This document shows, one piece after another, positions 32,631-64,000 of a stretch of DNA of 64,000 bases. Each line of letters begins with the position of its first letter. Position 1 is the stretch's first letter. A program made the position numbers and the translations under genes. The DNA is from Pseudomonas alcaliphila JAB1 (GTDB lineage: Bacteria > Pseudomonadota > Gammaproteobacteria > Pseudomonadales > Pseudomonadaceae): positions 1,488,001 to 1,552,000 of the forward strand of contig NZ_CP016162.1 of the NCBI RefSeq assembly GCF_001941865.1. The letters run 5' to 3'. Under the pieces are notes generated by a model. That model saw only the letters and a list, made by a program, of their open reading frames with translations, was not told where the DNA came from and searched no databases.

Positions 32631-33908
32631 CTATTCGGCCTCCAATTGATACTCCTTGCCTAGGCCCAGGGCGTCGCGATAGGCGTCCCAGAAGCCGACT
32701 ATGGCGCCCTCGGTGACCAAGTGCTCGGCGTCCTCAGCCTTGCCGCCGCCCATCCCGATGTAGGAAGCCTCTTCCTGATCGCGCACCACGGCGCCGTGCA
32801 CTAGCTCTACCGCCTCGCCGTCCTCCATCGAAATCAGCCCGGCCGGCCCGATCAAGTTACTCTGTTTGCGGCGGATGGACTGCATCTCTTCGTCGTCGTC
32901 GGCATAACCGAACTGCGTCCACACCAGTTCGAACTCGTTCTCGGAGTAGGTGACCAACTGTCGCACCGCCAGCGTGTTGGCGATCTGCTGTAACACCAGG
33001 TTCGGGAAGACCGCCAGGATCATCAGCGTTACCGGATCGTCGAACTCCTTGCGTCCGGCCAGCACGGAAGGATCCTGCAGCCTGAAGTCGGAATCGAAGG
33101 AGCGCGCGTCCTTGAATATCTCTTTGTCGAGCTCGTCGTTGTTCGAGCTGCTCTGCGAGTACAACATCGAGTGACGGCCCTGACGGCCACCGAGCAGCGA
33201 GCCCCCTGTCTGCGAGGAGCGGTACAGGCCGAAGGTGGCATGAAACAAGTGCAGAAGACTGGCGTGATAGGGGTCGCGCGTGTTTTCCGCGTATAGCTTC
33301 CAGTTACCGTGAATGTACTGTCGCTGATCGCCCAAGACCTTGATCGGGCGATTGAAAATACGTGCTATCGAATTCACCGTCCGCTCGCCCAGGTACTCCT
33401 GCAGCGGTTCGACCTCTTCGGAGAAGGTGGCGAAGACCACGCCGTGCAACGTCTCCACGCGCAGCTGCGTGAGGCCATGCCTGCTCATGTCGAACGACTC
33501 AGGCATGCCGCCCTTGCGCTTGATGCCTCGGCGGAACGGCACGCCGATCAGGTTGCCTTTGAGATCGTAGGCCCACTGGTGATACACGCACTCCAGGTTC
33601 GGTGTGTTGCCGCGCAGGCTGCGGCACACGCGCGCGCCGCGGTGGGCGCAGCGGTTCTGCATCACGTGCACGCTGCCGTCTTCGGCGCGAGTGACGATCA
33701 CTGGAATCTGCCCCACGAAAGTGGCCTTGTAGTCGCCCACGCTGGGGATCTCGGCCTCCAGTGCGACGAAGGACCAGTTATTGCCACGAAACAGCCGCTC
33801 CTGCTCCAGATCGAAATACTTGCGCTCGGTGAAGACCTTGTACGGAACCCGATGGCCTTCCTCCGTCAACTGGACCCGTGCCTGGGCCTGCTCAGATGCG
33901 ACGTTCAT
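32631..33908 (-). CDS. Rieske aromatic-ring hydroxylating oxygenase, large (alpha) subunit
   Basis: 425 aa, ATG at 33908 behind GAGGAGA. The Rieske centre is Cys87-x-His89 and Cys107-x2-His110. The mononuclear iron site is in ENTRDPYHASLLH (Asp212, His215, His220). Family resemblance is strongest to the OhbB (2-halobenzoate), AndAc (anthranilate), TphA2 (terephthalate) and NagG group, not to BenA or BphA. The first two substrates would give catechol directly, fitting the meta pathway encoded next door. The stop abuts an IS30 fragment, and no dedicated reductase is present. Its partner small subunit is encoded just upstream. Substrate assignment is inference. Confidence 0.85.
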   Translation of the reverse strand: MNVASEQAQARVQLTEEGHRVPYKVFTERKYFDLEQERLFRGNNWSFVALEAEIPSVGDYKATFVGQIPVIVTRAEDGSVHVMQNRCAHRGARVCRSLRGNTPNLECVYHQWAYDLKGNLIGVPFRRGIKRKGGMPESFDMSRHGLTQLRVETLHGVVFATFSEEVEPLQEYLGERTVNSIARIFNRPIKVLGDQRQYIHGNWKLYAENTRDPYHASLLHLFHATFGLYRSSQTGGSLLGGRQGRHSMLYSQSSSNNDELDKEIFKDARSFDSDFRLQDPSVLAGRKEFDDPVTLMILAVFPNLVLQQIANTLAVRQLVTYSENEFELVWTQFGYADDDEEMQSIRRKQSNLIGPAGLISMEDGEAVELVHGAVVRDQEEASYIGMGGGKAEDAEHLVTEGAIVGFWDAYRDALGLGKEYQLEAE

Positions 33909-33948
33909 TGTGTGTTCTCCTCTGTTCCGTGTCTGCGCTACTTTCGCC

Positions 33949-34437
33949 CTAAAGAGGGCGCGCGAGCAGGGTGTCGATGCGATAAGTGTCCAAGATCACC
34001 AGCTTTTCCTTGAAGCGCAGGGCGTCGCCAACCGCGACGATGCGGTCCATGTAGCGGCCGGCACTGTAGAGCTTGGTATTGCCGTCGTTGCGGGTTTGCA
34101 GCACCGCATAGTTACTCTGGACGCTGATCTCGCCATTGTCGGTGCCTGCTATATGGACACTGCTCACCAGGTGCCGGTAAAAGTGCTCGGGATAGATGTT
34201 GGCATTGCGTAGCGAGACTACGCGGTCATGCAACATGCCGCGGCTGTCACAATCCATGATCCCGATCGACATACCGCGATCAGCATTCTCGCGCGGAATG
34301 ATCCGATAGCTGCAATCTTCGACGAACAAGTCCGGCCATGCTTCCAGCCGATCATCATCTATGCATTGGACATAGCGGGTTAGCAATTGCTCCACTTGGT
34401 ACTGGAGCTCCATCGCCGATAGTGTCTCCGTTTGCAT
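33949..34437 (-). CDS. Aromatic-ring hydroxylating oxygenase, small (beta) subunit
   Basis: About 162 aa from the ATG at 34437, chosen because GGAGGAACAC precedes it; the frame is open 12 codons further. It has the beta-subunit cone fold signature region: QVEQLLTRYVQCIDDDRLEA, WPDLFVEDCSYRIIPRENAD, and the C-terminal LRFKEKLVILDTYRIDTLLA. It pairs with the alpha subunit 40 bp downstream to form an alpha-beta oxygenase. Resemblance is to the OhbA/AndAd type. It lies 36 bp after the LivF-like gene, so uptake and first oxidation are probably co-expressed. Confidence 0.83.
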   Translation of the reverse strand: MQTETLSAMELQYQVEQLLTRYVQCIDDDRLEAWPDLFVEDCSYRIIPRENADRGMSIGIMDCDSRGMLHDRVVSLRNANIYPEHFYRHLVSSVHIAGTDNGEISVQSNYAVLQTRNDGNTKLYSAGRYMDRIVAVGDALRFKEKLVILDTYRIDTLLARPL

Positions 34438-34473
34438 GTGTTCCTCCAATTCGGAAATGACTCTTTGCGGCAT

Positions 34474-35208
34474 TCATATGCCGATGTGTTTTTGAAGCAG
34501 TTCCGGCTTGCCCTGCAGGGCCAGGCTTGGACCGTCGTAGACAATGCGGCCCTTAACGAGAATCATGCTGCGGTCGGTAAAGCCGAGCAGCACGTTGATG
34601 TTTTTGTCGACAATCAGGGTGGCGATGCCGGAGTCTTTGATGGTGCGAATCACCTGCCATATCTCCTTTCTGATCAGCGGCGCCAGGCCTTCGGTGGCCT
34701 CGTCGAGGATCAGCAGGTCGGGGTTGAGCATGAGGGCACGACCGATCGCCACCATCTGCTGTTCGCCGCCGGAAAGATTGCCGGCAAGGTGGTCGATGCG
34801 CTCGGCGAGCCGCGGAAACGTCTGCAGAACTCGGGCAAGATCCCACTCGTTGCGTCCGTCGCGTCCAGGGCGGGCAGCCATGACCAGACTCTCTCGCACG
34901 GTCAGGTTTGGGAACATACCACGCCCCTCGGGCACGTAGCCGATGCCTTGGCGGATGATCTGGTGCGTCGCCGCGCGGCTCACGTCGCGCCCATTGATCA
35001 GTACGCGACCTTCTCGTGGCGGGGTCAGACCTAGGATTGAGCGGATGGTGGTGGTCTTGCCCATTCCGTTGCGTCCGAGCAGGCACACGCTCTCGCCGCG
35101 GGCGATAGTCAAATCCACACCATGCAGCACATGGCTGTTGCCGTAATAGGTATGCAGACGACTCGCCTGCACCAACAAATCGGGTGTGCTTTGCATTGCT
35201 TCTGCCAT
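34474..35208 (-). CDS. LivF-like ABC transporter ATP-binding protein
   Basis: 244 aa. Walker A LLGRNGMGKTTT, signature LSGGEQQMVAIGRALMLNPD, Walker B LLILDEATEGLAP. It is the smaller ATPase of a branched-chain amino-acid type (HAAT) importer. Next to aromatic oxygenase genes this importer class commonly brings in aromatic acids. The 2-halobenzoate (ohb) gene cluster also includes an ABC ATPase gene, which supports that assignment. The start overlaps the last base of the LivG-like stop. Confidence 0.9.
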   Translation of the reverse strand: MAEAMQSTPDLLVQASRLHTYYGNSHVLHGVDLTIARGESVCLLGRNGMGKTTTIRSILGLTPPREGRVLINGRDVSRAATHQIIRQGIGYVPEGRGMFPNLTVRESLVMAARPGRDGRNEWDLARVLQTFPRLAERIDHLAGNLSGGEQQMVAIGRALMLNPDLLILDEATEGLAPLIRKEIWQVIRTIKDSGIATLIVDKNINVLLGFTDRSMILVKGRIVYDGPSLALQGKPELLQKHIGI

Positions 35209-35966
35209 CAGTAGGCCTCCTCACCGTCGCCCAAATACGCTTCCTGCACTGCAGCATCGGCGCGAATCTGATCCACCGGGCCGCTGGCCAGAACCCGACC
35301 GTTGACCATGACCGTGAGCACGTCGGCGATGCTAAATACCGCATCCATGTCGTGCTCGACTAGTACCAGCGCGTAGTCTTCAGCCAGCTCTCTGAGCAGC
35401 GTAGCCAACTGCGCCGACTCCTCCTGGCCCATTCCGGCCATTGGCTCGTCAAGTACAAGACAGGTGGGGTCGGTGGCCAGCACCATGCCGATTTCTAGCT
35501 GACGCTGTTCCCCATAGCTCATGGCATAGGCCGGCATGTCGGCATGGTGTCTCAGGCCACACCGCTCCAGCCCAAGCTCGGCGCGGGCCCGCACCGCACG
35601 GTAGGTCTCTGCGCTTCGGAAGAAACGCATCGAATGTGGAAGGCGCGACTGCGCGGCCAGCCAGCAGTTTTCCAGGCAGGTAAAGCTTGGAAAGATATTG
35701 GTGCGCTGAAAGCTGCGACCGATACCCAGCTGTGAGATCGCGTTGGGCGGCAGCCCGGAAATGTCACGGCCGTGGAATAGCACCTGACCTTTGCTAGGCG
35801 CCAGATGCCCGGTGAGCAGGTTCACCATCGTGCTTTTTCCGGCCCCGTTGGGGCCAATGATCGCGTGCACCTCGCGCGGGCCCACGCTCAGCGAGACGTC
35901 GCAGACGGCGGTGAGCCCGCCGAAGTGGCGTGTCAACCCGTGCGTTTCGAGAATATTGTCACTCAT
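35208..35966 (-). CDS. LivG-like ABC transporter ATP-binding protein
   Basis: 252 aa. Walker A IGPNGAGKSTM, signature MSYGEQRQLEIGMVLATDP, Walker B CLVLDEPMAGMG, and the family end VQEAYLGDGEEAY. It forms the heterodimeric ATPase with the LivF-like protein. It overlaps livM by 4 bp and livF by 1 bp, so the operon is tightly coupled. Confidence 0.9.
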   Translation of the reverse strand: MSDNILETHGLTRHFGGLTAVCDVSLSVGPREVHAIIGPNGAGKSTMVNLLTGHLAPSKGQVLFHGRDISGLPPNAISQLGIGRSFQRTNIFPSFTCLENCWLAAQSRLPHSMRFFRSAETYRAVRARAELGLERCGLRHHADMPAYAMSYGEQRQLEIGMVLATDPTCLVLDEPMAGMGQEESAQLATLLRELAEDYALVLVEHDMDAVFSIADVLTVMVNGRVLASGPVDQIRADAAVQEAYLGDGEEAY

Positions 35967-37006
35967 AAATTGGCTCCTTCCCTGAGGGCGGCCTTGTCGG
36001 TATCGGGCGCACCGAGCTTGGCGGTGGGTTTGTTCCTACGCTCAGCCCATTTCAGCAGCAGTCCGCCAATACCCCTGGGCAGCAGCAGCACCATTGCGAT
36101 TACGGTGATACCCATGGGCAGCTCCCAATGCGGGGTCAGCGTCGAGTACCAATATTGCAGCCCTTCGAACGCGAACGCGCCGAGAATAGGGCCAAACAGG
36201 GTACCCATGCCGCCGAGGATCACCATGATGAGTGCGTGCGCCGAGAGCATCCAGCTGACGTCGGCCGGGTTCACAAAACCGTACTGCGTAGCCGAAAGAA
36301 ACCCCGCGTAGCCCGATAGGGTACCGGCGATAACGAAGGCGACGAGCTTGTAAATCACAGGGTTGTAGCCCAGCGCGCGGACACGGATTTCGTTCTCCTT
36401 GATGCCGGAGAGCACTCGTCCGAAGGGCGAGCGTAGCAGGGTGCGTAGCAGCAGATAGACTAGCAGCATGGAGGCCAGCACCACGTAATACAAAGTGGTT
36501 CTGTTTTCCAGATCGAGCAACTGTATGCCAGCTATGCTCACCTCGGGCTTGAACATCAGGTAAATGCCGTCGGAGCCGCCCGCGAACGGGGCGTCGTGGA
36601 ACAGATAGAAGAACATCTGCGAGAAAGCGATCGTCGCTATGATGAAGAAAATGCCCGAGGTGCGGATGATCAGCGCACCGATGATCAGAGCCGCCGCAGC
36701 CGCGAGCAGCAGGCTCATCGGCAGGGCGACCCAGAAATTCGCCGGCGCGAACTCCGGTGCGGTCAGTGCCAGGGTGTAGCCGGCGATGCCAAAGAAGACA
36801 GCTTGTGCAACGCTGACCATGCCCCCCGCCCCAACCAGCAGATCCAGGCTCAAGGCCATAATGGCCAGGATCATGATCGTAGTAACCTTTTGCGTGTAGT
36901 AGTCATGCTTGCTGCCGGCCAGCGCTTCGCCAAACAGCGGGTAAAGGGCCAGCAGCACCGTAAGCACTAATAACAAAATCTGTATAGAGCGAGGCAAAGA
37001 ACGCAT
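35963..37006 (-). CDS. LivM-like ABC transporter permease
   Basis: About 347 aa from the ATG at 37006, which follows AGGAA; an in-frame ATG at 37024 lacks a ribosome-binding site. Roughly nine membrane segments. LDLLVGAGGMVSVAQAVFFG, near the N-terminus, and GGMGTLFGPILGAFAFEGLQ are characteristic of LivM. It forms the channel with the LivH-like protein. Confidence 0.88.
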   Translation of the reverse strand: MRSLPRSIQILLLVLTVLLALYPLFGEALAGSKHDYYTQKVTTIMILAIMALSLDLLVGAGGMVSVAQAVFFGIAGYTLALTAPEFAPANFWVALPMSLLLAAAAALIIGALIIRTSGIFFIIATIAFSQMFFYLFHDAPFAGGSDGIYLMFKPEVSIAGIQLLDLENRTTLYYVVLASMLLVYLLLRTLLRSPFGRVLSGIKENEIRVRALGYNPVIYKLVAFVIAGTLSGYAGFLSATQYGFVNPADVSWMLSAHALIMVILGGMGTLFGPILGAFAFEGLQYWYSTLTPHWELPMGITVIAMVLLLPRGIGGLLLKWAERRNKPTAKLGAPDTDKAALREGANL

Positions 37007-37016
37007 CGAGAAATTC

Positions 37017-37877
37017 CTATGCAAAGAGGCCGCGGGGCTTCCAGAGAACGATCATCGCCATCAGGGCGTACACCACCGCGCCGGCGAAATGAGGGACCAG
37101 TACGGCACCCCAGGTGGAGGCCAGCCCTACCATCAGCGCCCCAACAAAGGCGCCTTTGATTGAGCCGATACCGCCGATGACCACCACCACAAAACAAATG
37201 ATCAAGACGTCGTTACCCATGCTCGGATACACCGAAGAGATTGGCGCGGCCAGCACGCCGGCAAAAGCGGCCAAGGTGGCACCGACGGCGAACACCGATG
37301 TGTAAGTCCAGGAAATATTAATGCCCAGAGCTTGCACCATCTCGCGATTGCTAGCGCCGCCTCGGACAATCATGCCCAACCGCGTTTTTTGCAGGATGAG
37401 GTACATGGCGATGGCGATGGCGATGCATATGCCCGAGAGGAACAGGCGGTAAATGGGATAGTCCAGATTCTCGGTGAGCACTATCGCGCCGCGCAGAGAC
37501 TCAGGGATGGGCACGGCGTGCACGTCGTTGCCCCATAGGATGCTTTGCAAGGCATTGAAGATGAGGATGAGACCGAAAGTGAGCAACACCTGATCAAGAT
37601 GGTTGCGCTTGTAGATGCGCTGAATCAACAACTTCTCCAGCATGATCCCCAGCAGCAGTGCGATTGGAAGCGCGGCGATGGCGGCAAGCCAGAAATTGCC
37701 CAGCACCGACGTCAACCAGAACGCCAGATAGGCGCCGATCATATATAGCGCGCCGTGTGCGAGGTTGATGATGTGCATGATGCCGAAAATTAGCGTCAGG
37801 CCGCTGGCAATCAAAAACAACAGCAAGCCCTGCTGGATGCCGTTGAGCATCTGTATGAAAAAAGTTGACAGGTCCAT
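37017..37877 (-). CDS. LivH-like ABC transporter permease
   Basis: 286 aa, about eight membrane segments. The LivH signatures are GLTLIFGIMHIINLAHGALY and VVIGGIGSIKGAFVGALMVG. It ends 10 bp before the LivM-like start. It is separated from the upstream binding-protein gene by a GC hairpin that may lower permease expression relative to the binding protein. Confidence 0.9.
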   Translation of the reverse strand: MDLSTFFIQMLNGIQQGLLLFLIASGLTLIFGIMHIINLAHGALYMIGAYLAFWLTSVLGNFWLAAIAALPIALLLGIMLEKLLIQRIYKRNHLDQVLLTFGLILIFNALQSILWGNDVHAVPIPESLRGAIVLTENLDYPIYRLFLSGICIAIAIAMYLILQKTRLGMIVRGGASNREMVQALGINISWTYTSVFAVGATLAAFAGVLAAPISSVYPSMGNDVLIICFVVVVIGGIGSIKGAFVGALMVGLASTWGAVLVPHFAGAVVYALMAMIVLWKPRGLFA

Positions 37878-37936: not shown

Positions 37937-39127
37937 TTAGTTGGACATCTCGCAGCCGGTTGCCGGATCTTCCAGCGCCTCTGCCGCAACGCCTATCATC
38001 ACGCTTTTACCATTGCGCACTTCGCTCATATAGACATTCTGGATCGGGTTGTGCGCCTTGGACATGCTCCAGGGGCCGCGTGGGCTGTCGTCGAACTTCA
38101 CCTTGCGCATCGCGTCGATCAGCGCGCCACGATCGGAGGTATCGCCTTTGACCGCCTCCATAGCGCGAATTAGCAACAGACCCGCGTCGTAACCCTGCAC
38201 GGCGTAAATATCGGCTTCGGAGTCGTAGCGTTCCTTGAAAGCTTGGCGGAACGCCTTGTTATACTCATTGTCGAGGTCTTCGGCGTAATGCATGGTGGTG
38301 CGGATGCCATCCGCGCGGTCGCCCAGCCCGTCAAGGCTCTCGGTCAGGAAGCCGGTGGAGAGCAGCGGAATCGTATTCTTGAGGCCGGCGTCGGCGTAGT
38401 CCTGAATGAACTTCACGGCACCGCCACCTCCGAAGAAGGTATAAACAGCATCGGGCTTGATTGATGCGATCTCGGTCAGCTGGGCTTGGAAGTCGACGCT
38501 GGGGAAAGGAACCAGGATCTGCTTGACGATCTCGCCGCCGAGGCGCTCGAATTCTTCCTCGAAGCCGCCCAGATGCTCGGTACCGGCTGCATAGCGCCAG
38601 GATATTGTCACGATGCGGCGATAGCCCGCATCATAGGCCGGCTTGGCCATAGCGTAATCGGCCTGCCAGTTTGAGAACGAAGTACGGAATATATTGGGTG
38701 CGCACAACTCACGCGTGGCCACGTTCAGGCCGGCGTTGGGGATCACCAAAATGGTGCCGGTCTGACGCGCTACCTTGATCGCAGCCATGGCGACGCCCGA
38801 GTGGACCGGGCCAATCACGAAGTCGACATTCTCGCCGGAGATGAGCTTCTGCATATTGCTAACAGCCTTGCCTGGGTCCGCCTCGCTGTTGACCACGACA
38901 AACTTGGCTTCGCGTCCCCCGAGCTTGTTTCCGTGCTGTTCGATCGCAAGGCGCATACCTCGGTCCGCGTTGGTGCCGAGCATTCCGAATGTGCCTGAGT
39001 AGGGGAGTAGCAGACCGATCTTGACCTGCTCTTGCGTCGAGGCTGCGCCCGTCATTGTAAGAGTCATGAGTGCAGCCGCGGCTGCACCCGGTGCAAAGCG
39101 TTTTGCCTTTACCTTGAATAAACCCAT
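37937..39127 (-). CDS. ABC transporter substrate-binding protein (LivK type), copy 2
   Basis: 396 aa periplasmic protein. The signal peptide ends near TGAAST. Mature fold I starts VKIGLLLPYSGTFGMLGTNA, and DFVIGPVHSGVAMAAIKVAR and IPNAGLNVATRELCAPNIFR shape the ligand cleft. ACP-type family 1 binding proteins of this sort bind aromatic acids in several bacteria. It is a clear paralogue of the next gene upstream, sharing the same length, motifs and the C-terminal CEM ending. Confidence 0.88.
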   Translation of the reverse strand: MGLFKVKAKRFAPGAAAAALMTLTMTGAASTQEQVKIGLLLPYSGTFGMLGTNADRGMRLAIEQHGNKLGGREAKFVVVNSEADPGKAVSNMQKLISGENVDFVIGPVHSGVAMAAIKVARQTGTILVIPNAGLNVATRELCAPNIFRTSFSNWQADYAMAKPAYDAGYRRIVTISWRYAAGTEHLGGFEEEFERLGGEIVKQILVPFPSVDFQAQLTEIASIKPDAVYTFFGGGGAVKFIQDYADAGLKNTIPLLSTGFLTESLDGLGDRADGIRTTMHYAEDLDNEYNKAFRQAFKERYDSEADIYAVQGYDAGLLLIRAMEAVKGDTSDRGALIDAMRKVKFDDSPRGPWSMSKAHNPIQNVYMSEVRNGKSVMIGVAAEALEDPATGCEMSN

Positions 39128-39230
39128 TTGATTTTCCTTTTTATTTTTGTTTGTCGGCCTTAAGAGACCCGGGGCTATAGCTCCGCTACGCGTTACACCT
39201 ATAAAATGACCTCGCTACTGGAAAGTAACC

Positions 39231-40412
39231 TCAGTTCATTTCGCATCCCAGCGCTGGATCAGACAGCGCCTCGGCGGCGGTACCGACCACCACGTTGGTG
39301 CCGTCCTGCACTTCGCGCAGGTAAATGTTTTGCATTGGATTATGCGCCTTGGAAAAGCGCCACTCACCGCGCGGACTATCGATCCGCACCTGTTCCATCG
39401 CGGCGATCCAGGCTTCGCGATCACGGCTGTTGCCTCCCACCGTTTGCAGCGACTGGGCTAGCAACAGGCCAGCGTCGTAGCCCTGAACCGCGTAGACGTC
39501 CGCCTCCTTGGCGAACCTCTGCCGGTAGGACTGGCGGAACGCCAAGTTCTTCTCGGTTGCCAGACCCTCGGCATAATGAAGGGTGGTCAACAGGCCCTCG
39601 GCTGCTTGCCCCTGAGCCTCCAAGGTGCCCTCAGTGAGGAAGCCCGAGCCAAGCAGCGGAATCCGTCCCTGCAGGCCCGACGCTGCATAATCCTGGACGA
39701 ACTTGGCGGCACCGCCACCGGCGAAGAAGACAAACACCGCGTCCGGCTTGAGCGCAGCAATCTCGGTGAGATGGCTCTGGAACTCCACTTCAGGGAACGG
39801 TACATAGAGCTCCTTAAGCACCTTGCCACCGGCCTGCTCGAGACCCTCCTTAAAGCCGTCCACCGACTCGGTACCGAAGCCGTAGCGCCAGGCCAGGGTG
39901 ATGACATTCTGGTAACCACGGTCGGCGGCCACCTGACCCATGGGGTAGGCGGTCTGCCAGGAGCTGAATGAGGTACGGAAGATGTTCGGCGCGCACAGCG
40001 GGCCGGTGGCCGCGTTGAAGCCTGCGTTGGGGATGATCAGCGGCACACCGGTCTCCCGGGCGACCTTGACCGCGGCCATGCCAACGCCAGAATGTATCGG
40101 ACCAACCACCACATCCACATTAGCACCGGACACCAGGCGCTGCATATTTTGCACCGCCTTGCCGGGGTCGGCGCCATCATCGACCACTACGTACTCGACT
40201 GGACGCCCACCAAGCTGGTTGTCGTACTGCTCAATAGCCAACTTCAAACCATTGGTAGCAGCTTCACTTGGCGCGGCGTATGTGCCGCTGTATGACATCA
40301 AAAGGCCAATCTTGATTGGCTCATCCGCGTGAGCCAGACCGCACAGGGTGGTGAACAGGATCCCAGGCAGAAGGCCGTGGAAGGTGGAAGCGCGTTTTTT
40401 ATTCTTGTTCAT
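39231..40412 (-). CDS. ABC transporter substrate-binding protein (LivK type), copy 1
   Basis: About 393 aa from the ATG at 40412, which follows GGAGAG. The signal peptide (LLPGILFTTLCGLAHAD) precedes IKIGLLMSYSGTYAAPSEAA, VVVGPIHSGVGMAAVKVARE and IPNAGFNAATGPLCAPNIFR. It is paralogous to the downstream binding protein, with only one permease/ATPase set to serve both. Two binding proteins may give the importer two ligand ranges. Confidence 0.88.
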   Translation of the reverse strand: MNKNKKRASTFHGLLPGILFTTLCGLAHADEPIKIGLLMSYSGTYAAPSEAATNGLKLAIEQYDNQLGGRPVEYVVVDDGADPGKAVQNMQRLVSGANVDVVVGPIHSGVGMAAVKVARETGVPLIIPNAGFNAATGPLCAPNIFRTSFSSWQTAYPMGQVAADRGYQNVITLAWRYGFGTESVDGFKEGLEQAGGKVLKELYVPFPEVEFQSHLTEIAALKPDAVFVFFAGGGAAKFVQDYAASGLQGRIPLLGSGFLTEGTLEAQGQAAEGLLTTLHYAEGLATEKNLAFRQSYRQRFAKEADVYAVQGYDAGLLLAQSLQTVGGNSRDREAWIAAMEQVRIDSPRGEWRFSKAHNPMQNIYLREVQDGTNVVVGTAAEALSDPALGCEMN

Positions 40413-40462
40413 GGTGACTCTCCAATGCTGCACTGCAAAAAATCTCTCGTCGGTTATAGCCT

Positions 40463-40498: not shown

Positions 40499-41764
40499 TT
40501 ACAGCAGGTTCCAGGTGTAGTTGAAAATCAGGCGGTTCTCGTCTATGTCGCTGCGGTAGTTGGAACGGGCAACGACATTGCGTAGCCGCACACCGAGGTT
40601 CTTGAGCGCGCCGCTCTGGAAGGTGTAACCCACATCTAGATCACGCTCCCACTCCTTGCCCTCGAAGCCCCTGCCAGTGTCGACGTTGTCTCCCTTGATG
40701 AAGCGCACCGTGGTCACCAAGCCGGGAAGACCCAGCGCAGCGAAGTCGTAGTCATGGCGAACCTGCCAGGAGCGCTCGTCGGCTCCGGCGAACTCATAGG
40801 TGGGGACTTCATTGCCCAGCGGCGAAACGTTGTTGAAGAGACGCGGGAAGGCGTCATCGCCGAACATGGCCTGATAGCCGACCATGAAGGTGTTCCCGCC
40901 ATACTTGGCCGACAACTGGGAGAAAACCGCCTGATTATCGATATTGCCCAGCAGCTGATCACCGTCTTCCTTGGAGTCGTAGAAGCCTATGTTAGCGCCC
41001 AGTCCCCAGTCACCCACCGGCTCGCTGTGCTTGAGGCTATAGAAACGCTGGTTAAAAATGTCTTCCAACTGCGCGTACCAGACGCCGACCGAGGTGCGCT
41101 TATCGTTGAAGGCGTAATCGGCACCTGCGTAGTTGAAGCGGTCGGTCGCGGCGTTCCCCGCCAGCTGCGGCAGATGACCGAGCTTGGCGCGCATCTTGTC
41201 GTCACCCGCCTCGTTCAGCAGACTGTTGGAACGGAATTGACCGCCTTGTAGGGTCAGTCCGTCGAACTCGCGGGAAATGATGCTAGCGCCCTGGTAAGTC
41301 GGGGGCAGCAGGCGAATATCAGAGAAGGTAAGCACCGGCAGGTTCGGGGTTTGCTCGCCGATCTTCAGTTCGGTCTGCGACAGGCGCACCTTTAGCGCCG
41401 CTCCAAGGCGGCTGAAGTCATCGACCGCCTCGCCGCTATCCAGGGGTAGCAAGCCGGTATTCACCCTCTCGCGGCTACTGTCGAGTTTAATGCCCAGCAT
41501 TCCCAGCAGGTCGACGCCGAAACCGACTGTGCCCTGGGTGTAGCCAGAATTCACTCTGAGAATGAAGCCCTGCGCCCACTCTTCGGCCTTGGACTGCTGG
41601 TTGGGGCCCTCAATGTCCGAGAAATCCCGACTGAAATAATAGTTGCGCGCTTGCAGCGTCGCCGTGGTGTCTTCGATGAAACCGCCTTCAGCGGCTAGGG
41701 TACTGAGCGGCAGACTGGCGCTCACAGACACCAGCAGACGGGTTAGGTTCGGATATTGCTTCAT
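40499..41764 (-). CDS. OprD-family outer-membrane porin
   Basis: About 421 aa from the ATG at 41764. The signal peptide ([20 protein letters not shown]) precedes [20 protein letters not shown], the typical OprD start. The strands end in [12 protein letters not shown] with the C-terminal hydrophobic residue needed for barrel assembly. OprD (OccK/BenF-type) porins carry aromatic carboxylates and similar small acids over the outer membrane. Its place between the nah operon and the importer genes fits an aromatic-acid channel. Confidence 0.88.
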
Positions 41765-42035
41765 TTTTGACTCGCTCTTTTTTATTGTTTTTTGGAAAGC
41801 ATATATATGCCACATATTTCCCGCCCACAATTCTCCGTACCGCAAGTGGGCGGCCTTGAAACCACCTCGCTACCCAGACAGGCAACTCGGCGTAACAAAC
41901 GGACCAGCCGCTCTGCACTTTTCCTCGCTTTAGGCATGCTTAAAATAACAGGCAGTCACTTGCCCGCGCTCTTTGTGGCCGCGTCCCAATGCAGGTCTGG
42001 TTCCTCGACCCGAAGTGCCCTTGGGCATCTCCACT

Positions 42036-42227
42036 TCAGCGTCTGACCTTGCTGGCCAGTTCGCCGCCGATACCGAAGTGGCCCTTGGCCATCTCCGTGA
42101 TAATCACTCGCACGCTGGTCAGCGGCGCATCCAGGGAGCGCGATATGGCCTCGCTGACCTCACGGATGAGGGTTTCCTTCTGCTCGTCGTTGCGGCCTTC
42201 AAGAATGTGGATCTGGGCAATAGGCAT
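42036..42227 (-). CDS. nahJ: 4-oxalocrotonate tautomerase
   Basis: 63 aa. After Met removal the catalytic Pro1 is exposed ([11 protein letters not shown]). Arg11, Arg39 and Phe50, the other active-site residues known in this enzyme, are all in place. It ketonises 2-hydroxymuconate to the 2-oxo-3-enedioate in the oxalocrotonate branch of the catechol meta pathway. It is the last gene of the nah operon, 48 bp after nahK. Confidence 0.95.
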
Positions 42228-42275
42228 GGTGTGCCTCCTGAAGAAGAGGCCGCCCGGGCAGGGCGGCCGGATGGC

Positions 42276-43070
42276 TCAGACGAAGCGCGCGGAGACGCTG
42301 CCAAGCCCCTGGTAGCGCACGGTGATGTTGTCGCCCGGCGCTACTGCGACGGCGGCGGTGATGCCGCCAGTCATGATGAAGGTGCCGGCCGGTATGTGTT
42401 CGTCGCGCTCTGCCAGCAGGTTGGCCAGCATGGCCACGCTGGACAGCGGATGGCCGAGCACTGCGGCGCCGGCACCAAGTTCCACCACCTCGCCGTTCTT
42501 CTCCATCACCACGCCGAGAGTGCGCAGGTCGACCTCCTCGAGGTTGGCCATGCGGCCTCCGGTGATGTAGCGGGTCGACGAGGCGTTGTCGGCCACCACG
42601 CTGATCAGGTCGAACTTGAAATTCTCATAGCGCGAGTCGATTACCTCGACGGTGGGGATCACGTAGTCGACCGCGGCGATCACGTCGCCGATATGGCAAC
42701 CAGGCCCGACCAGCGGTGCCTTGGTGACCACCGCGATTTCCGCCTCGATCTTGGGGTGGATCAGCTTGGAACAGTCCACCGTGCCGCCGTCGGGCACGCT
42801 GAAGTAGTCGGCGAGAAAGCCGTAGATCGGCGTCTCCACGCCCATCTGTGCCATCTTCGCCCATGAGGTCAGGCCCATCTTCAGGCCGACGATCTTGTTG
42901 CCGCGCTCCTCCTTGCGCCGGCGGATTTCCCACTGGATGTCGTAGGCATCGGCGAAGGTCATCTCGGGATAGTCGTTGGTGACCTTGTGGATGTCATGGG
43001 CCTGCAATTCGGCGTTCTCGATGTGCTCGGCCAGGGCCAGCACCTGCTCGCGGTTGAGGGTACGGTTCAT
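42276..43070 (-). CDS. nahK: 4-oxalocrotonate decarboxylase
   Basis: 264 aa from the ATG at 43070, overlapping nahM by 4 bp (ATGA). It belongs to the hydratase/decarboxylase family: [40 protein letters not shown] and [20 protein letters not shown]. It decarboxylates 2-oxo-3-hexenedioate to 2-hydroxypenta-2,4-dienoate, acting in a complex with the NahL hydratase, to which it is homologous. Confidence 0.93.
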
Positions 43071-44107
43071 GCGCTCACCTTCTGGTTCTGGCGGGCCCGG
43101 GACATATCCAGGGCGAGGTCTTCGATCATGTCTTCCTGGCCACCGACGGTGCCGCGGCGCCCCAGCTCGACCAGAATGTCGCGGGCCGGCACGCCGTATT
43201 TCTTCTCGGCGCGCTGGGCGAACAGCAGGAATGAGCTGTATACGCCGGCATAGCCCAGGGTCAGCGCATCGCGGTCGACGCGGATCGGCTGGTCCATCAT
43301 CGGCACGACGAGGTCTTCGGCCACATCCATGATCTTGTAGAGGTCGATGCCGGTTTCCACGCCCATGCGCTTGCACACCGCGACGAAGACTTCCAGCGGG
43401 GTGTTGCCGGCACCCGCGCCTAGCCCTGCGACCGAGCCGTCGATGCGCGAGGCGCCGGCCTCGATGGCCGCCAGCGAGTTGGCGATGGCCATGCCCATGT
43501 TGTGGTGGCCGTGGAAGCCGATCTCGGTGGCCGGGTTCAGCTCGGCGCGCAGCAGGCCGATCTTCTCGCTGACTTCATCGGGCAGCATGTAGCCGGCGGA
43601 GTCGGTGCAATAGATGCAGTTGGCGCCGTAGCTTTCCATCAGCCGCGCCTGCTCCAGCACTTTTTCCGCGCTGATCATGTGCGCCATCATCAGGAAGCCG
43701 ACGGTATCGGCGCCCAGCTTGCGCGACATGCCGATGTGCTGCTCGGAGACATCGGCCTCGGTGCAATGCGTGGCCACTCGAATGGTGGAGACGCCACAGT
43801 CGAGCGCCATCTTCAGGTGGTCGACCGTGCCGATGCCCGGCAGCAGCAGGGCGGATACCTTGGCCTGCTTGAGGCGCGGGATCACCGCACGCAGGTATTC
43901 CTCGTCGCTGTGCGCGGGGAAACCGTAGTTGATCGAGCGACCGCCGAGGCCGTCGCCGTGGGTGATCTCGATCAGTGGCATGCCGGCGGCGTCGAGGCCG
44001 GTGGCGACCGCGATCATCTGCTCGAGGCTGATCTGGTGGCGCTTGGCGTGCATGCCGTCGCGCAGGCTCATGTCGTGCAGGGTGACGTTCTTGCCTTGCA
44101 GATTCAT
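43067..44107 (-). CDS. nahM: 4-hydroxy-2-oxovalerate aldolase
   Basis: 346 aa of the HMGL/DmpG family. [15 protein letters not shown] near the start gives the catalytic Arg-Asp and His20. [14 protein letters not shown] provides the metal-binding HxH. It cleaves 4-hydroxy-2-oxovalerate to pyruvate and acetaldehyde and channels the aldehyde to NahO. It lies 12 bp after nahO. BphI at 59644 is a same-length homologue. Confidence 0.95.
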
Positions 44108-44119
44108 GGTGCGACTCCT

Positions 44120-45043
44120 TTAGGCCAGTGCCGCTTCACGACGTGGCAGTTGAATGGTGCCGCTGGCGATTTCCTCGGCGAACATCTCGCCGGTGCGCAG
44201 GGCGGCGGCGGTCATGATGTCGAGGTTGCCGGCGTACTTGGGCAGGTAGTCGCCCAGGCCCTCGACCTCCATGAAGATCGAGACGCGGTTGCCGTCGAAT
44301 ACCGGGCCATTCTTCAGCCGGTAGCCGGGCACGTACTTCTGCACCTCGGCGATCATCGCGTGGACCGATGCGGTGATCGCATCCTGGTCCGGTTCGGTTT
44401 CGGTCAGGCAGTGGATGGTGTCGCGCATCATCAGCGGCGGCTCGGCCGGGTTGACGACGATGATCGCCTTGCCTTCCTTGGCCCCGCCGACCTGCTCGAT
44501 GGCGCCGGCGGTGGTGCGGGTGAACTCGTCGATGTTCTTGCGGGTGCCCGGGCCGATGGAGCGCGAGGACACGGTGGCGACGATCTCGCCGTAGGCCACC
44601 GGCTGCACGCGCGATACCGCGGCGACCATCGGGATGGTGGCCTGGCCACCACAGGTGACCATGTTGACGTTCATTTCCAGCGTGCCGACATGCTGCTTGA
44701 GGTTCACCGGCGGCACGCAGTACGGGCCGATGGCGGCCGGGGTCAGGTCGACCATCAGCACGCCCAGCTCGTTGAGCTTGCGGCTGTTCTCGGCGTGTAC
44801 ATAGGCGGAGGTGGCATCGAAGGCGATGCGGATATCGTCCTCGAGCACGTGCGGCAGCAGGCCGTCGACGCCCTCGGCGGTGGTCTTCAGGCCGAACTCG
44901 CGGGCGCGCTTGAGGCCATCGGACTCGGGGTCGATGCCGACCATCCAGACCGGCTCGATCCACTCGGAACGCAGCATCTTCATCACCAGATCTGTGCCGA
45001 TGTTGCCCGGGCCTATGATCGCTACTTTCAGTTTCTTGCTCAT
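44120..45043 (-). CDS. nahO: Acetaldehyde dehydrogenase (acylating)
   Basis: 307 aa. NAD-binding [14 protein letters not shown] at the N-terminus and catalytic Cys131 in [13 protein letters not shown]. It oxidises acetaldehyde to acetyl-CoA in a channelling complex with NahM. It lies 14 bp after nahL. Its counterpart in the bph operon is BphJ. Confidence 0.95.
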
Positions 45044-45057
45044 CAGGCTGTCCTCGA

Positions 45058-45843
45058 TCAGATGAAGCGCACGCTGGCGCTGCCGATGCCGCCGATATCG
45101 ACGCGCATGAAATCACCGGCCTTGACCGGTTCCAGCGGAACCAGCGAGCCGGACAGGATCACTTCGCCGGCCTTCAGGCCGATGCCGAAGTGGCCGAGGG
45201 TGTTGGCCAGCCAGGCCACGCAGTTGACCGGCGAGCCGAGCGCAGCCGCTCCAGCGCCGGTGGAGAGCAGCTGGCCGTTTTTCTCGACCACCATGCCGCA
45301 GGTGACCAGATCGACCTGGCGCGGTGAGACGGCCTGGTCGCCGAGCACGAACAGCCCGCAGGAGGCGTTGTCTGCCACGGTGTCCTGGATCTTGATCTTC
45401 CAGTCCTGGATGCGCGAATCGACCACTTCGAAGCAGGGAATCACGCATTCAGTGGCGGCCAGCACGTCGGCGTTGGTCACGCCCGGCCCCATCAGGTCCT
45501 TCTTGAGGATGAAGGCGATCTCGCCTTCGGCGCGCGGCTGGATCAGCCGCTCACTGATCGGCATGGCTTCGCCGCTGTTGTAGACCATGGCATCGGTGAG
45601 GTAGCCGAAGTCCGGCTGGTGCACGCCGAGCATGTTCTGCACGGCCTTGCTGGTGACGCCGATCTTCTTGCCGATCACCCGCTCGCCGGCAGCCAAGCGC
45701 CGTTCCAGCATGCGCAGGGAAATGTGGTAGGCGTCCTCGACGGTAATGTCGAAGCCGCGGCTGGTCAGCGGCGTGACGGTCTCGCGCTGGACCATCGCCT
45801 GGTAGAGCTCGTCGCCGAGTTCGTTGATCAATGTCTTGTCCAT
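45058..45843 (-). CDS. nahL: 2-hydroxypenta-2,4-dienoate hydratase
   Basis: 261 aa. Family motifs [40 protein letters not shown] and [18 protein letters not shown]. It adds water to 2-hydroxypentadienoate to give 4-hydroxy-2-oxovalerate. It lies 11 bp after nahN and is homologous to NahK, its complex partner, and to BphH. Confidence 0.94.
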
Positions 45844-45854
45844 ATCGGTCTCTC

Positions 45855-46703
45855 TCAGGAATGGAGGGCGTCGGCCTCGGCGAGGAAATTCTCAACTAGG
45901 CGGGCGAAACGCTCGGCGTGTTCGATCTGGGTCCAGTGGCCGCACTGGCCGAAGACGTGCAACTGGGCGCGGGCGATCCATTCGGCCAGGGTCAGCGAGG
46001 CCGCCAGCGGAATCACCTGGTCCTCGCGGCCATGGATCACCAGTGTTTCGTGGGGCAGGGCGCGGATGTCCGCTTCGTCGCTGGCCAGCCCGTCGACCCA
46101 GCGTTGGCGCGGGGCCGGGAACATCTGGGCGAAGGATTCCTGAAAGCCGGGGCGGATACTGGCCTGGTAACGCAGCTCGGCCAGCTCGTCGTTGACCAGG
46201 TTGCGGTCGTAGGCGAAAACGTCCATCAGCCGGCGCATGCTGGCAAAGGACGGCTCGTAGCCCCAGACAGCATCCAGGCCCGGCGTGATTGGAAAACTCA
46301 CTCCAACGCTGCCCATCAGCACCAGCCGGCGCACCCGCTCGGGATGCCGGATGGCCAGTGCCAGCGCCAGCCCGCCGCCGAACGAGTTGCCGACGATGTC
46401 GGCCTGCTGGATGCCGAGGGCGTCGAGCACGCCGATGGCATGCTCGACCCAGCGCGCCTGGCTGTATTGTCCATCGGCCGGACGTTCGCTGTAGCCGAAG
46501 CCGAGCATGTCCGGAGCGACCACCCGGCGCGTCTGCGCCAGCTGCGGAATGATCCCGCGCCAGTTGGCCCAGGCGGTGACGCCCGGCCCGGAGCCGTGGA
46601 TCAGCAGAACCGGGAAGCCTTCGCCCTGATCATGCAGGTTGGTGCGGTAGCCAGCGGCGAGGATTTCGCGACCGATTTCAGGGCTTTGCTGCGGTGCGTT
46701 CAT
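45855..46703 (-). CDS. nahN: 2-hydroxymuconic semialdehyde hydrolase
   Basis: 282 aa alpha/beta hydrolase. Oxyanion motif LLIHGSGPGVTAWANW, nucleophile Ser107 in VGNSFGGGLALALA, Asp in HGREDQVIPL and His in FGQCGHWTQIEHAERF. It hydrolyses the ring-fission product to formate plus 2-hydroxypentadienoate. It lies 10 bp after nahI. It is related to BphD but has its own substrate pocket. Confidence 0.94.
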   Translation of the reverse strand: MNAPQQSPEIGREILAAGYRTNLHDQGEGFPVLLIHGSGPGVTAWANWRGIIPQLAQTRRVVAPDMLGFGYSERPADGQYSQARWVEHAIGVLDALGIQQADIVGNSFGGGLALALAIRHPERVRRLVLMGSVGVSFPITPGLDAVWGYEPSFASMRRLMDVFAYDRNLVNDELAELRYQASIRPGFQESFAQMFPAPRQRWVDGLASDEADIRALPHETLVIHGREDQVIPLAASLTLAEWIARAQLHVFGQCGHWTQIEHAERFARLVENFLAEADALHS

Positions 46704-46713
46704 GGCCAGCTCC

Positions 46714-49908: not shown

Positions 49909-51222
49909 TTACCCTTGACGCAGCGCAATTTGCTCATGCGCCTCCCAACCCATGCGCAGTCGGGCCTCAGCCACATCGGCATCGAGATCATGGTTCCATA
50001 GCCAGTCGAAACGAGTCGCCAGTATTTCCCCCACCAGCTGTTCGTCCGCACCTACAATGGGGTCGCGCAACTCGTATAACTCGCCGGTTTCCACAGTGGT
50101 TCGTTGCACACGACAGGCATGAGGGCGGCGCAGGTCGTCGTAAGCTCCAAGCAGCTCGGGGAGGTTGCCTGTTTCGGTCCGACTATCGCCCAACAGCCGG
50201 GCGAGGAAATAGGCGTCCTCAAGCCCTTGCCCTGCACCGGCACCTTGGTGCGGCAGCATGGCGTGCGCTGCGTCGCCGATCAGGGCAACCCGACCGTGTA
50301 CGTAGCCTGGCAGTTCCGGCAGGTCATGCAGTGCCCAGAGAGTTGGCGCCGGGATGCACTCCAGTAAGGCGCGCGGGGCATCGCCCCAGCCCGCGAACGC
50401 ATCGAGCATCTCGCGCTGGCTCGCTTCCCGTACCCAGGGAGCGTCCGCGGGCCAAGTCGGTTCCGGCTGGCTACGGTCGGAGGTGAACGCTACCACGTTG
50501 ACAATGCGGCCTTTTCTCACCGGGAAGGTAAGAATATGGCCATAGAGCCCTAAGTACATCTGCGGGACATCCACCAAGTGCTCGTCAATGCCATTTATTC
50601 TATAGGCTTCGCGCAGTTGCAGGCTATCTACCATGCCCCGGTATGCACAGGTACCGCTAAAACGTGGTTCTAAATGATCCAGCCCCTGACCTTCCAGCAC
50701 ATAGCTACGAAGCGCTGACTTAATGCCGTCGGCGCCGATTAGAAGATCGCAGCGGTACTCTGTGCCGTCGGCGAATAGCATTTGCAGTTCATCACCCTGC
50801 TGCTCGATTTGGGTGGCACGCTTCCTAAATTGGGCGATACCTTCTGGAAGGTGTTTTACTAGGGCGTCAAGGAAATCAGCACGGTGTGCAGAGGACTGAC
50901 CTACGCCCGGCGCAATGGTGGCGCCTAGATAGCTGGCATCGCTACCGCGCCGCCATTCAAACCAAATATCCTCCCAAGGCTGCGGAGTCCGATCAGCAAC
51001 CTGAAAGTAGGCTTGACCCAAACCCAAACCGACAATGGCGCGCACTGCGTTAGGCCCGAAGGACACACCAGCACCGACTTCACCGAACGCCGGGGCAGCC
51101 TCGAATAGCTGCACATTAAGATGGGAGTGTTTGCACAAGCTCAATGCCAAGGCAAGGCCTGAAATTCCGCCGCCGACTATAGCGACGCGCAAGGCTGGTT
51201 TCTTAGCGTTCATGTCGTTCAT
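49909..51222 (-). CDS. nahG: Salicylate 1-monooxygenase (salicylate hydroxylase)
   Basis: 437 aa flavoprotein. FAD-binding VAIVGGGISGLALALSLCKH at the N-terminus, LLIGADGIKSALRSYVLEGQ in the middle and VALIGDAAHAMLPHQGAGAG towards the C-terminus. From memory the sequence follows NAH7 NahG closely, including EAAPAFGEVGAGVSFGPNAV. It converts salicylate with NADH and O2 to catechol and CO2. It is the promoter-proximal gene of the operon and is divergent from nahR; a second in-frame ATG at 51213 is possible. Confidence 0.96.
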   Translation of the reverse strand: MNDMNAKKPALRVAIVGGGISGLALALSLCKHSHLNVQLFEAAPAFGEVGAGVSFGPNAVRAIVGLGLGQAYFQVADRTPQPWEDIWFEWRRGSDASYLGATIAPGVGQSSAHRADFLDALVKHLPEGIAQFRKRATQIEQQGDELQMLFADGTEYRCDLLIGADGIKSALRSYVLEGQGLDHLEPRFSGTCAYRGMVDSLQLREAYRINGIDEHLVDVPQMYLGLYGHILTFPVRKGRIVNVVAFTSDRSQPEPTWPADAPWVREASQREMLDAFAGWGDAPRALLECIPAPTLWALHDLPELPGYVHGRVALIGDAAHAMLPHQGAGAGQGLEDAYFLARLLGDSRTETGNLPELLGAYDDLRRPHACRVQRTTVETGELYELRDPIVGADEQLVGEILATRFDWLWNHDLDADVAEARLRMGWEAHEQIALRQG

Positions 51223-58712: not shown

Positions 58713-59576
<864 letters not shown>

Positions 59577-62422: not shown

Positions 62423-62504
62423 GGCGTTTCTCATTCCAGGTCGGGGCGTTCATTGCTTTGAGGCAGCTCTCCCAGGCCCGCTTCCGCGCCCCGGGAAGGC
62501 ATCT

Positions 62505-63116
62505 TCACTCCTTGATCAAGCCTTCGGCGCGAAGCGCTGACTGTACCGCTTCACGGCCTCCAACACGGCCTTGGAAGGCCTGCAGCGAGGGCCAGGGCGA
62601 AAGATCAATGTTGACATATGCGCTCCAACCGAGCACGACGAACAGATAGATGTCGGCCACACTCAGTTGGTCGCCCAGCAGATAAGGCGCATGTTCGAGC
62701 TGTCGTGCGACCTGCCCCAGGCGGGTGTTCAGGCTCTGCCGCACGGCGTTTTTCCACTCATCGCTGGAGGCAGGGTTGAACAAGGGGCTGAAGCTCTTGT
62801 GCAGTTCGCTCGAGATGAAGTTCAGCCATTGCTGCAAGTGGTAGCGCTCGAAGCTGCCGTTGGCCGGCGCCAGCTGCTTGCCGGGGACCTGATCGGCCAC
62901 GTATTGCACGATGGCCGGGCCTTCGGTCAGGGTACGGCCGTCGTCAAGCTGCAGGCAAGGCACGTACCCGGCCGGGTTGATCTCCAGGTAGTCCTGCCCG
63001 GAGGCAGTCTTCTTGCTCGCAAGATCGACCTGCACCAACTCGAAGTTCAGGCCCGCCTCGCGCAATGCAATGTGCGGTGACAGGGAGCAGGCACCAGGGC
63101 TGTAGTAAAGTTTCAT
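62505..63116 (-). CDS. bphK: Glutathione S-transferase BphK
   Basis: 203 aa, beta-class GST. The N-terminal thioredoxin fold has MKLYYSPGACSLSPHIALRE with Cys10 as catalytic residue. The helical C-terminal domain holds APYLLGDQLSVADIYLFVVL. BphK of LB400 can dechlorinate chlorinated HOPDA, removing dead-end products of PCB breakdown. It sits between bphC and bphH as in LB400. It is not needed for biphenyl growth there, so its presence hints at a PCB-adapted operon. Confidence 0.95.
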   Translation of the reverse strand: MKLYYSPGACSLSPHIALREAGLNFELVQVDLASKKTASGQDYLEINPAGYVPCLQLDDGRTLTEGPAIVQYVADQVPGKQLAPANGSFERYHLQQWLNFISSELHKSFSPLFNPASSDEWKNAVRQSLNTRLGQVARQLEHAPYLLGDQLSVADIYLFVVLGWSAYVNIDLSPWPSLQAFQGRVGGREAVQSALRAEGLIKE

Positions 63117-63147
63117 GCAGGGATTCCCGTGCTATTCAGGTTGTTGT

Positions 63148-64000
63148 TCATGCTTTGTTGCGCGCAGCTGCTTTGTCGCGCACAGACTTGTGGCCCCACA
63201 TGCTCGGACTGTCGTGCCTCACCACAACCCAGGAGCGGTCAACGGTACGGGCACTCCAGCCATACTCGACCTCTACTCCGGACGGGGTCGAGGCATAGAA
63301 CGACACCATGTGGTCATTGGTGTGGCGCCCCAGCGTGGAGGTGATCAAGCCGTCCGCGTCAACCCGATCAAATGCAAAGCCGACGTCATCGAGCGAGGCG
63401 ACTTCGAGCATGAAGTGATGAATGCGTTTTGGCAGCGGGAATGCCGCAATTGCCAGGGTGTGGTGGCGTTCGTTGCAGTGCAGGAAGTACACAGGAACCG
63501 TCACGTCCGGCCCCATTTTCATGTCGATGACGTCAGACAACTGGAAGCCGAGCACGTCGGTATAAAACGCCAGCGCCTTGTCCGAATCCGGAACGCAGCG
63601 CACGAAATGCCCCAGCCCTTGCTCGCCGGTCAGGAAACCCGACACGGCCGCACCAGGCAGGAACGGTTTTTCGAACACCTCGCTGGCGCCATAGTAAATT
63701 TCCAACGGCAGGCCAAACGGGTCGGCAAAGGTGATCAATCCGGTCACCCCGCGGCGCCTGGCCAATGAGGCATCGCCGGTGGTGACTGCGATACCGGCCT
63801 GTTTGAGCTTGTCAGCCATCTGCGCCAGCCCTGCCGCATCGGCCACCTCGTAGCCGGCAAAGGCCAGATCGTCAACCTCGCCCTGCTGAACGGCGATCCG
63901 CCAGGCTCTCGAATCGATGCGGAACAGGTCGCCGTTGTCGGTCGTGCCCGCTTCCATCAAGCCCAGTTTCTGCGTCAGAAACGAACGCCAAGCAGCTACG
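63148..64000 (-). CDS. bphC: 2,3-dihydroxybiphenyl 1,2-dioxygenase BphC (5' end beyond window)
   Basis: 283 codons are inside the window; by comparison with LB400 BphC (298 aa) about 15 N-terminal residues lie beyond base 64000. Iron ligands: the His in GQGLGHFVRCV, the His in KRIHHFMLEV and the Glu in PSGVEVEYGW. It opens 2,3-dihydroxybiphenyl to HOPDA, the substrate of BphD. It ends SVRDKAAARNKA, 31 bp before bphK. The upstream bphA and bphB genes are expected to the right of this window. Confidence 0.96.
   Translation of the reverse strand, partial: VAAWRSFLTQKLGLMEAGTTDNGDLFRIDSRAWRIAVQQGEVDDLAFAGYEVADAAGLAQMADKLKQAGIAVTTGDASLARRRGVTGLITFADPFGLPLEIYYGASEVFEKPFLPGAAVSGFLTGEQGLGHFVRCVPDSDKALAFYTDVLGFQLSDVIDMKMGPDVTVPVYFLHCNERHHTLAIAAFPLPKRIHHFMLEVASLDDVGFAFDRVDADGLITSTLGRHTNDHMVSFYASTPSGVEVEYGWSARTVDRSWVVVRHDSPSMWGHKSVRDKAAARNKA

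Follow-up and report, generated by a model that had tools for sequence, protein, structure and literature searches.

A candidate uptake and oxygenase unit for ortho-substituted benzoates on the ICEbph-sal element of Pseudomonas alcaliphila JAB1

Chlorobenzoates are a usual dead end of aerobic breakdown of polychlorinated biphenyls (PCBs), and one mobile element that brings together steps for biphenyl, ortho-benzoates and catechol would therefore be relevant to bioremediation. Such genes stand together in Pseudomonas alcaliphila JAB1, a soil bacterium that degrades PCBs, in 64,000 nucleotides of its chromosome (positions 1,488,001-1,552,000, hereafter the window) that lie wholly within the 125.3-kb integrative and conjugative element (ICE) ICEbph-sal. 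The subject here is a pair of Rieske oxygenase subunits, alpha and beta, encoded in the window together with genes for a porin, an importer and a BenE-type symporter, next to the sal operon for meta cleavage of catechol. From the sequence alone, an original prediction had proposed that, if this pair accepts 2-chlorobenzoate and makes catechol from it, one element would carry the route from ortho-chlorobiphenyl to central metabolism.

Sphingomonads possess three-component salicylate 1-hydroxylases, AhdA1cA2c and BphA1cA2c. The electron chain of BphA1c, AhdA1c-e and PhnA1b is of type IV, composed of a [2Fe-2S] ferredoxin and a GR-type reductase (PMC2358900), and AhdA1-type oxygenases share one such ferredoxin/reductase pair (PMC2358900; PMC4048848). 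AhdA1c/d of strain PNB converted salicylate to catechol with the shared ferredoxin and reductase, and anthranilate to 2-aminophenol; 2-chloro- or 2-iodobenzoate gave no detectable product (PMC4048848). The OhbAB ortho-halobenzoate 1,2-dioxygenases are known from plasmid pA81 of Achromobacter xylosoxidans A8 and from P. aeruginosa strains 142 and JB2. The ohbAB genes occur on ICEclc-JB2, ICEclc-LB400 and pA81; strain LB400 has bph and ohb in one genome, and the ohb genes of strain 142 were introduced into LB400 for growth on 2-chlorobenzoate (PMC6050381). A further relative is AndA, encoded by andAcAdAb of pCAR3 and pNK84.

Genes of the window were called from open reading frame (ORF) coordinates together with NCBIfam and Pfam profile scans, with matches that exclude chance (e.g., E = 2.5e-132 for C23O and 3.1e-240 for salA). 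The distal bph genes with bphK, a complete sal/nah operon, and the Rieske pair with its importer, porin, BenE and XylS-type regulator were all found as open frames, in agreement with the gene content first noted. The genes around the oxygenase are the following (window positions).

28900..29907, plus strand: XylS-type regulator of the AraC family, 75.8% identical to XylS of pWW0 (NC_003350) over 95%
30873..32123, minus strand: BenE-family benzoate/H+ symporter, by profile match
32158..32627, no strand assigned: remnant of an IS30-family transposase, ISPa59-like (about 83-84%), between the alpha gene and benE
32631..33908, minus strand: Rieske oxygenase alpha subunit, salicylate 1-hydroxylase/OhbB lineage
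33949..34473, minus strand: Rieske oxygenase beta subunit, 55% to the A8 beta subunit and 47.5% to BphA2c of pNL1
34474..37877, minus strand: ABC importer, four genes of LivF, LivG, LivM and LivH types, 91-96% amino acid identity to Pseudoxanthomonas spadix
37937..39127, minus strand: periplasmic binding protein 1, 84% to P. spadix
39128..39230, minus strand: probable scar of a Rieske ferredoxin gene, by alignment to P. spadix
39231..40433, minus strand: periplasmic binding protein 2, 57.6% to binding protein 1, where P. spadix has a ferredoxin gene
40499..41845, minus strand: OprD-family porin, truncated in pWW53 at window position 41363

The explanation that we lean towards, with somewhat better than even confidence, is that these genes form an uptake and oxygenase unit for ortho-substituted benzoates. 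BenE, the OprD porin and the ABC importer with its pair of binding proteins, all of which adjoin the Rieske pair, would take up these acids. The alpha/beta pair would hydroxylate salicylate-type acids at C1 (or C1/C2), releasing CO2, and the catechol formed would be passed on to meta cleavage by the neighbouring sal operon. Electrons would be supplied in trans by the ferredoxin and GR-type reductase that the bph genes of this element encode. The likeliest substrates are salicylate and/or anthranilate; 2-chlorobenzoate is possible but less likely.

The alpha subunit is 68% identical to BphA1c of pNL1 over 399 residues (65.5% over the whole alignment), compared with 55% to the BN5 protein, 52% to OhbB of A8 (50.8% over the whole alignment) and 39% to HybB. 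The Rieske motif (residues 87-110), the iron ligands H, H and D and the carboxylate-binding arginine are intact. Five substrate-contact positions were taken from TphA2 (PMC9060491) and read from an alignment of 53 rows, whose numbering was checked by the TphA2 iron ligands H210, H215 and D356, aligned to H, H and D in 53 of 53 rows. The contact residues are YLIRL in both the window protein and BphA1c, WLVRF in OhbB, WMMRM in NagG, FIIRL in AndAc of KA1 and NSIRR in TphA2, while two uncharacterised proteins 66-67% identical to OhbB (P0122 and P0123) have YLVRF and YVVRF. The window protein thus differs from OhbB at three of five positions. V290 and F390 occur in all three Ohb rows, of which only that of A8 is of a characterised type, and the window protein has isoleucine and leucine there. 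When columns fixed within each of three sets (five window-type, eight BphA1c-type and three Ohb-type rows) were compared, 28 united the window with BphA1c against Ohb and three united it with Ohb; 140 were identical in all and 10 otherwise different.

The sphingomonad loci also share the beta-alpha gene order with JAB1, and BphA1cA2c of pNL1, like the JAB1 pair, has no reductase gene listed beside it; neither a reductase nor a ferredoxin gene was found beside the alpha/beta pair in JAB1. They differ from JAB1 in that an isomerase gene (nahD type), bphC and a ferredoxin gene adjoin the oxygenase, where JAB1 has the ABC importer and porin.

The only close relative of the alpha subunit in genome contigs (the best 80 of 163 were considered) belongs to P. 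spadix, at 97%, followed by a Marinobacter metagenome-assembled genome (MAG) at 78%; a separate protein search found a Marinobacter algicola protein at 82%. Within Pseudomonas, nine of 398 genomes, including that of JAB1, match the alpha subunit at E<=1e-60, the best other at 50%, and a gene-order scan at E<=1e-150 returned one of 390 genomes, again JAB1 itself. Among 88 loci compared, several of them short, P. spadix alone has oxygenase and importer side by side under the thresholds applied. Relatives at 63-66% were also seen in three MAG contigs labelled Klebsiella pneumoniae (L065, L074 and L085), likely binning errors.

In P. spadix DSM 18855 (contigs L019/L125) the gene order from binding protein to alpha subunit is the same as in JAB1, with 97% identity in alpha, 95% in beta and 91-96% in the ABC proteins. 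Unlike JAB1, this strain has a Rieske ferredoxin gene, and its module lies in a larger cluster ordered benABCD, a salA-like gene (63-64%), benE, porin, Rieske ferredoxin, binding protein, LivHMGF, beta, alpha, benzaldehyde dehydrogenase (77.7% to an annotated one) and alcohol dehydrogenase. Over seven shared genes, dN/dS (nonsynonymous over synonymous divergence) between the two strains, an average of both lineages, is 0.10-0.25, and the values of 0.13 for alpha and 0.25 for beta indicate purifying selection. Synonymous divergence (window 32631-39127 against 4780-11278 of L019) falls about fourfold, being 0.43 for the binding-protein gene and 0.10 for that of alpha, which suggests a later exchange for the oxygenase end than for the importer end. 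This gradient is a sign of mosaic ancestry inside one gene cluster.

The ferredoxin frame of P. spadix ends directly before the binding-protein gene. When 39128-39230 of JAB1 was aligned to that spot, the local score was 65, against a highest value of 32 in 500 base shuffles. The spacer after the stop codon, taken alone, is clear, with a score of 42 (0 of 2000 shuffles as high). The diverged coding tail of 7-8 codons is weaker: 17 of 2000 shuffles attained its local score of 23, although none of 2000 did so once the alignment was fixed to the stop codon (score 21, highest shuffle 9). The rest of the ferredoxin gene is absent from this spot, and the second binding protein stands in its place. 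JAB1 has thus probably lost its own ferredoxin gene, keeping the last codons and the spacer, a simpler reading of the alignment than an acquisition by P. spadix at that position. With the ferredoxin gene probably lost, electrons most likely come in trans. BphA3 (100% to KF715) and BphA4 (92% to KF715) are encoded on the same element at about 1,552,949-1,554,498, and the oxygenase probably borrows electrons, perhaps from this biphenyl dioxygenase chain, a pairing that would fit the published sharing by AhdA1-type oxygenases.

Several observations weigh against a salicylate-type substrate. JAB1 (on the same element) and P. spadix (in the same cluster) already have salA and benABCD, so that a second salicylate enzyme would be redundant and a third substrate would make sense. 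In pWW53 and in P. spadix the genes that flank the module in JAB1 or its counterpart belong to benzoate operons, not to a salicylate one, and the regulator is XylS-like (75.8%). YLIRL occurs in 37 of the 53 rows (35 of 51 beyond the window protein and BphA1c), and is therefore partly ancestral and weak proof of substrate. The beta subunit is closer to that of A8 (55%) than to BphA2c (47.5%). A terminator-like hairpin (41967-41948, minus strand) lies between the sal operon and oprD and, although such hits are near chance level, makes co-transcription of the module with sal only putative. The phylogeny of the alpha subunit weighs on the same side. Its rows were reduced from 125 to 69 by thinning at 90% identity and to 46 by hand (23 removed, mostly long or near-duplicate branches), and seven were then added to give 53. 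OhbB of A8 with P0122 and P0123 was the sister of the window clade, with support of 95/91 in the 53 rows and 90/80 after removal of distant rows, and 63/90 when OhbB was the only Ohb row. The redundancy, the regulator and the benzoate-operon neighbours are the reasons for which an OhbAB-type 2-halobenzoate 1,2-dioxygenase, with a route from ortho-chlorobiphenyl through 2-chlorobenzoate and catechol to acetyl-CoA, keeps a modest probability, although we consider it unlikely. The ohbAB genes of A8 resemble those of JAB1 in their beta-alpha order and 41-base spacing, AromaDeg (PMC4250580) likens a protein of P. spadix BD-a59, not verified to be the same protein, to OhbB of strain 142, and salA and benABCD leave another ortho-substituted substrate unclaimed in both hosts.

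Other observations count against this dehalogenase. The window alpha subunit was placed as sister to the OhbB clade, not inside it; OhbB alone was a long branch in the first trees, with support raised by P0122 and P0123 and lowered by removal of distant rows. A tree with Ohb held outside the group was not rejected (p-AU 0.245), nor was an exclusive clade of the window protein with BphA1c, which was not recovered (p-AU 0.163), and a further alternative gave p-AU 0.132. A beta tree of 33 rows placed the window subunit beside that of A8 with weak support (82/0). The lineage of the alpha subunit therefore leans to Ohb, while its residues appear to be of salicylate type, with three contact positions and 28 fixed columns unlike Ohb. 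JAB1 lacks the IclR-type ohbR gene beside the oxygenase (ohbR as described in PMC6050381) and has ABC genes upstream of beta instead. The reported failure of AhdA1c/d to yield product from 2-chlorobenzoate (PMC4048848) likewise speaks against dehalogenation. Biphenyl-induced JAB1 cells given Delor 103 formed 2-, 3- and 4-chlorobenzoate and three dichlorobenzoates, unquantified and mentioned by the authors as data not shown (PMC5796565); this counts against the dehalogenase reading, yet neither proves nor excludes a slow use of 2-chlorobenzoate. LB400, with its bph and ohb genes, did not grow on 2-chlorobenzoate according to the account in PMC6050381, so having the genes is not enough to predict the trait. 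The route originally predicted from ortho-chlorobiphenyl to central metabolism is thus partly supported: the presence of the genes on one element and the favoured sister position of OhbB stand, and the specific claim that 2-chlorobenzoate is dehalogenated is not supported.

The published label antAB would make the pair an anthranilate 1,2-dioxygenase, which we regard as rather improbable. AndA belongs to the same broad family, its NCBIfam models are the best for both subunits (AndAc, 520.6 bits; AndAd, 205.8 bits), and AhdA1c/d act on anthranilate too, giving 2-aminophenol (PMC4048848); both scores, however, fall under the curated cut-offs (750 and 230), for which membership in AndA was rejected, rows with an AndAc annotation group in a clade of their own, and no AndAa or AndAb partner adjoins the pair, unlike in KA1 and NK8. 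Terephthalate dioxygenase and salicylate 5-hydroxylase were discarded as well: the alpha subunit falls with the salicylate 1-hydroxylase/OhbB enzymes, TphA2 and NagG are in separate clades and the contact residues differ, so that the tree did not bear out the outcome by which the original prediction was to be refuted. A decaying remnant, an oxygenase without ferredoxin bordered by an IS30 remnant and no longer used, seems the least probable; the probable ferredoxin scar and the IS30 border fit it, but seven intact genes have kept low dN/dS across the split from P. spadix, as an average of both lineages. More speculative, and in our view improbable though slightly less so than the anthranilate and remnant readings, is that the JAB1/P. 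spadix pair is an intermediate between salicylate 1-hydroxylases and OhbAB, on the Ohb side with the older pocket and some 2-halobenzoate activity, rewired to the biphenyl dioxygenase electron chain after ferredoxin loss and placed on a self-transmissible ICE that would take some ortho-chlorobiphenyls to central metabolism. Even without dehalogenation, the lineage of the pair is, among those found here with a salicylate-type pocket, the one closest to OhbAB, and the origin of oxygenolytic dehalogenation thereby becomes directly testable with a handful of enzymes.

The joins of the module to its surroundings point to a composite origin. Window 42060-57236 is 99.0% identical to pKF715A; at its lower end this match breaks off within the final codons of the tautomerase gene. 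The TOL plasmids pWW53 and pDK1 match 41363-42036, including the 5' part of oprD, at 99.6%, and pWW53 matches 29137-32165 (benE and part of the regulator gene) at 99.9%; BenA, BenB and BenC of the JAB1 benzoate operon upstream of the window (1,474,745 onward) are identical to those of pWW53. Judged by these identities, the module resembles the end of a benzoate operon of pWW53 type that was fused to a sal operon of KF715 type. In pWW53 the match to 41363-42036 is followed by a 445-base intron-like piece (93.7-94.2 kb; L099, 13757-14201), 87% identical to the 3' part of the window group II intron (56625-57069), and then by the match to 29137-32165. Both flanks are matched likewise in pDK1, with the same distance from tautomerase to benE. 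The two plasmids thus have flanks above 99% and yet, in that interval, lack the 9.2 kb of 32165-41363 with the rest of oprD, the importer and the oxygenase. One deletion beside the intron remnant would explain the pWW53 state; a gain of the module in JAB1, where its benE side ends in the IS30 remnant, is a possible alternative. At 27304-28644 and 26611-26964 the window has repeats of 98-100% identity in L014/L015, about 48 and 27 kb upstream, flanking the other benzoate operon, and frames in 26066-26830 and 27472-28272 match transposase families.

The element itself ends at a tRNA-Gly(ccc) gene (1,560,378-1,560,451). The 18 bases of its 3' end (1,560,378-395) have a single further copy in the genome (1,435,069-1,435,086), which differs by one mismatch, and these repeats bound the 125.3 kb. 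The 18-bp repeat ends at tRNA-Gly(CCC) and the bph and sal cargo place the element in the ICEbph-sal family of KF715, KF707 and KF716, which has the same attachment site and cargo. With its ends located, biphenyl, catechol meta-cleavage and ortho-benzoate-type oxygenase genes do occur on one element. The sal operon is 98.6-99% identical to that of KF715, which has other genes after it and no oxygenase/importer module in the 40-kb stretch of pKF715A compared. Window 1-13084 contains pKF715A conjugation genes at 95-97%, inverted relative to the sal operon, which fits the inversion recorded in PMC8704644.

The original prediction presented the arrangement with this oxygenase as one not known to be described, but it was in print in 2018 and the ICE in 2021. 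Ridl et al. (2018; PMC5796565) placed salA and the sal genes at 1,518,873-1,540,279, along with benE, a porin, an ABC transporter of six ORFs and "antAB", given as a putative terminal dioxygenase; bph was placed at 1,545,237-1,557,889. The element was named ICEbph-salJAB1, with sal:bza fusions recorded, in PMC8704644. The gene arrangement is thus previously published and the oxygenase adds a member to a known family; new here are the sharing of the module with P. spadix, the probable ferredoxin scar and the gap in the TOL plasmids. No published test of the JAB1 oxygenase was seen by title or abstract among the matches listed, a search with most subscription journals outside its scope.

The sal/nah lower operon (42036..51222) is complete, with decarboxylase and tautomerase frames reaching 42036. 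At higher coordinates lie nahR and, farther on, the distal bph genes.

42036-42227, minus strand: sal tautomerase
about 42276-43070, minus strand: sal decarboxylase
43067-44107, minus strand: sal aldolase
44120-45043, minus strand: sal acetaldehyde dehydrogenase
45058-45843, minus strand: sal hydratase
45855-46703, minus strand: sal hydrolase
46714-48174, minus strand: sal HMSDH
48209-49132, minus strand: sal C23O
49129-49500, minus strand: sal ferredoxin
49909-51222, minus strand: salA, flavin salicylate hydroxylase gene
51377-52279, plus strand: nahR, LysR regulator of NahR/BphR2 type
58713-59573, minus strand: bphD
59644-60684, minus strand: bph aldolase
60704-61618, minus strand: bph acetaldehyde dehydrogenase
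61640-62434, minus strand: bph hydratase
62505-63116, minus strand: bphK
63148 to 63999, minus strand: bphC, cut by the window end

An ORF at 41973-42866 (plus strand) was rejected as a gene, having no Pfam match and lying antisense to the tautomerase and decarboxylase genes. No PHROGs matches were found, and scans for promoters (5, with 4.6 expected) and terminators (16, with 11.5 expected, standard deviation 3.3) were near chance. Between bphD and the group II intron, at 57237-58610, lies a gene for a FadL-type outer membrane transporter, perhaps for uptake of hydrophobic substrates.

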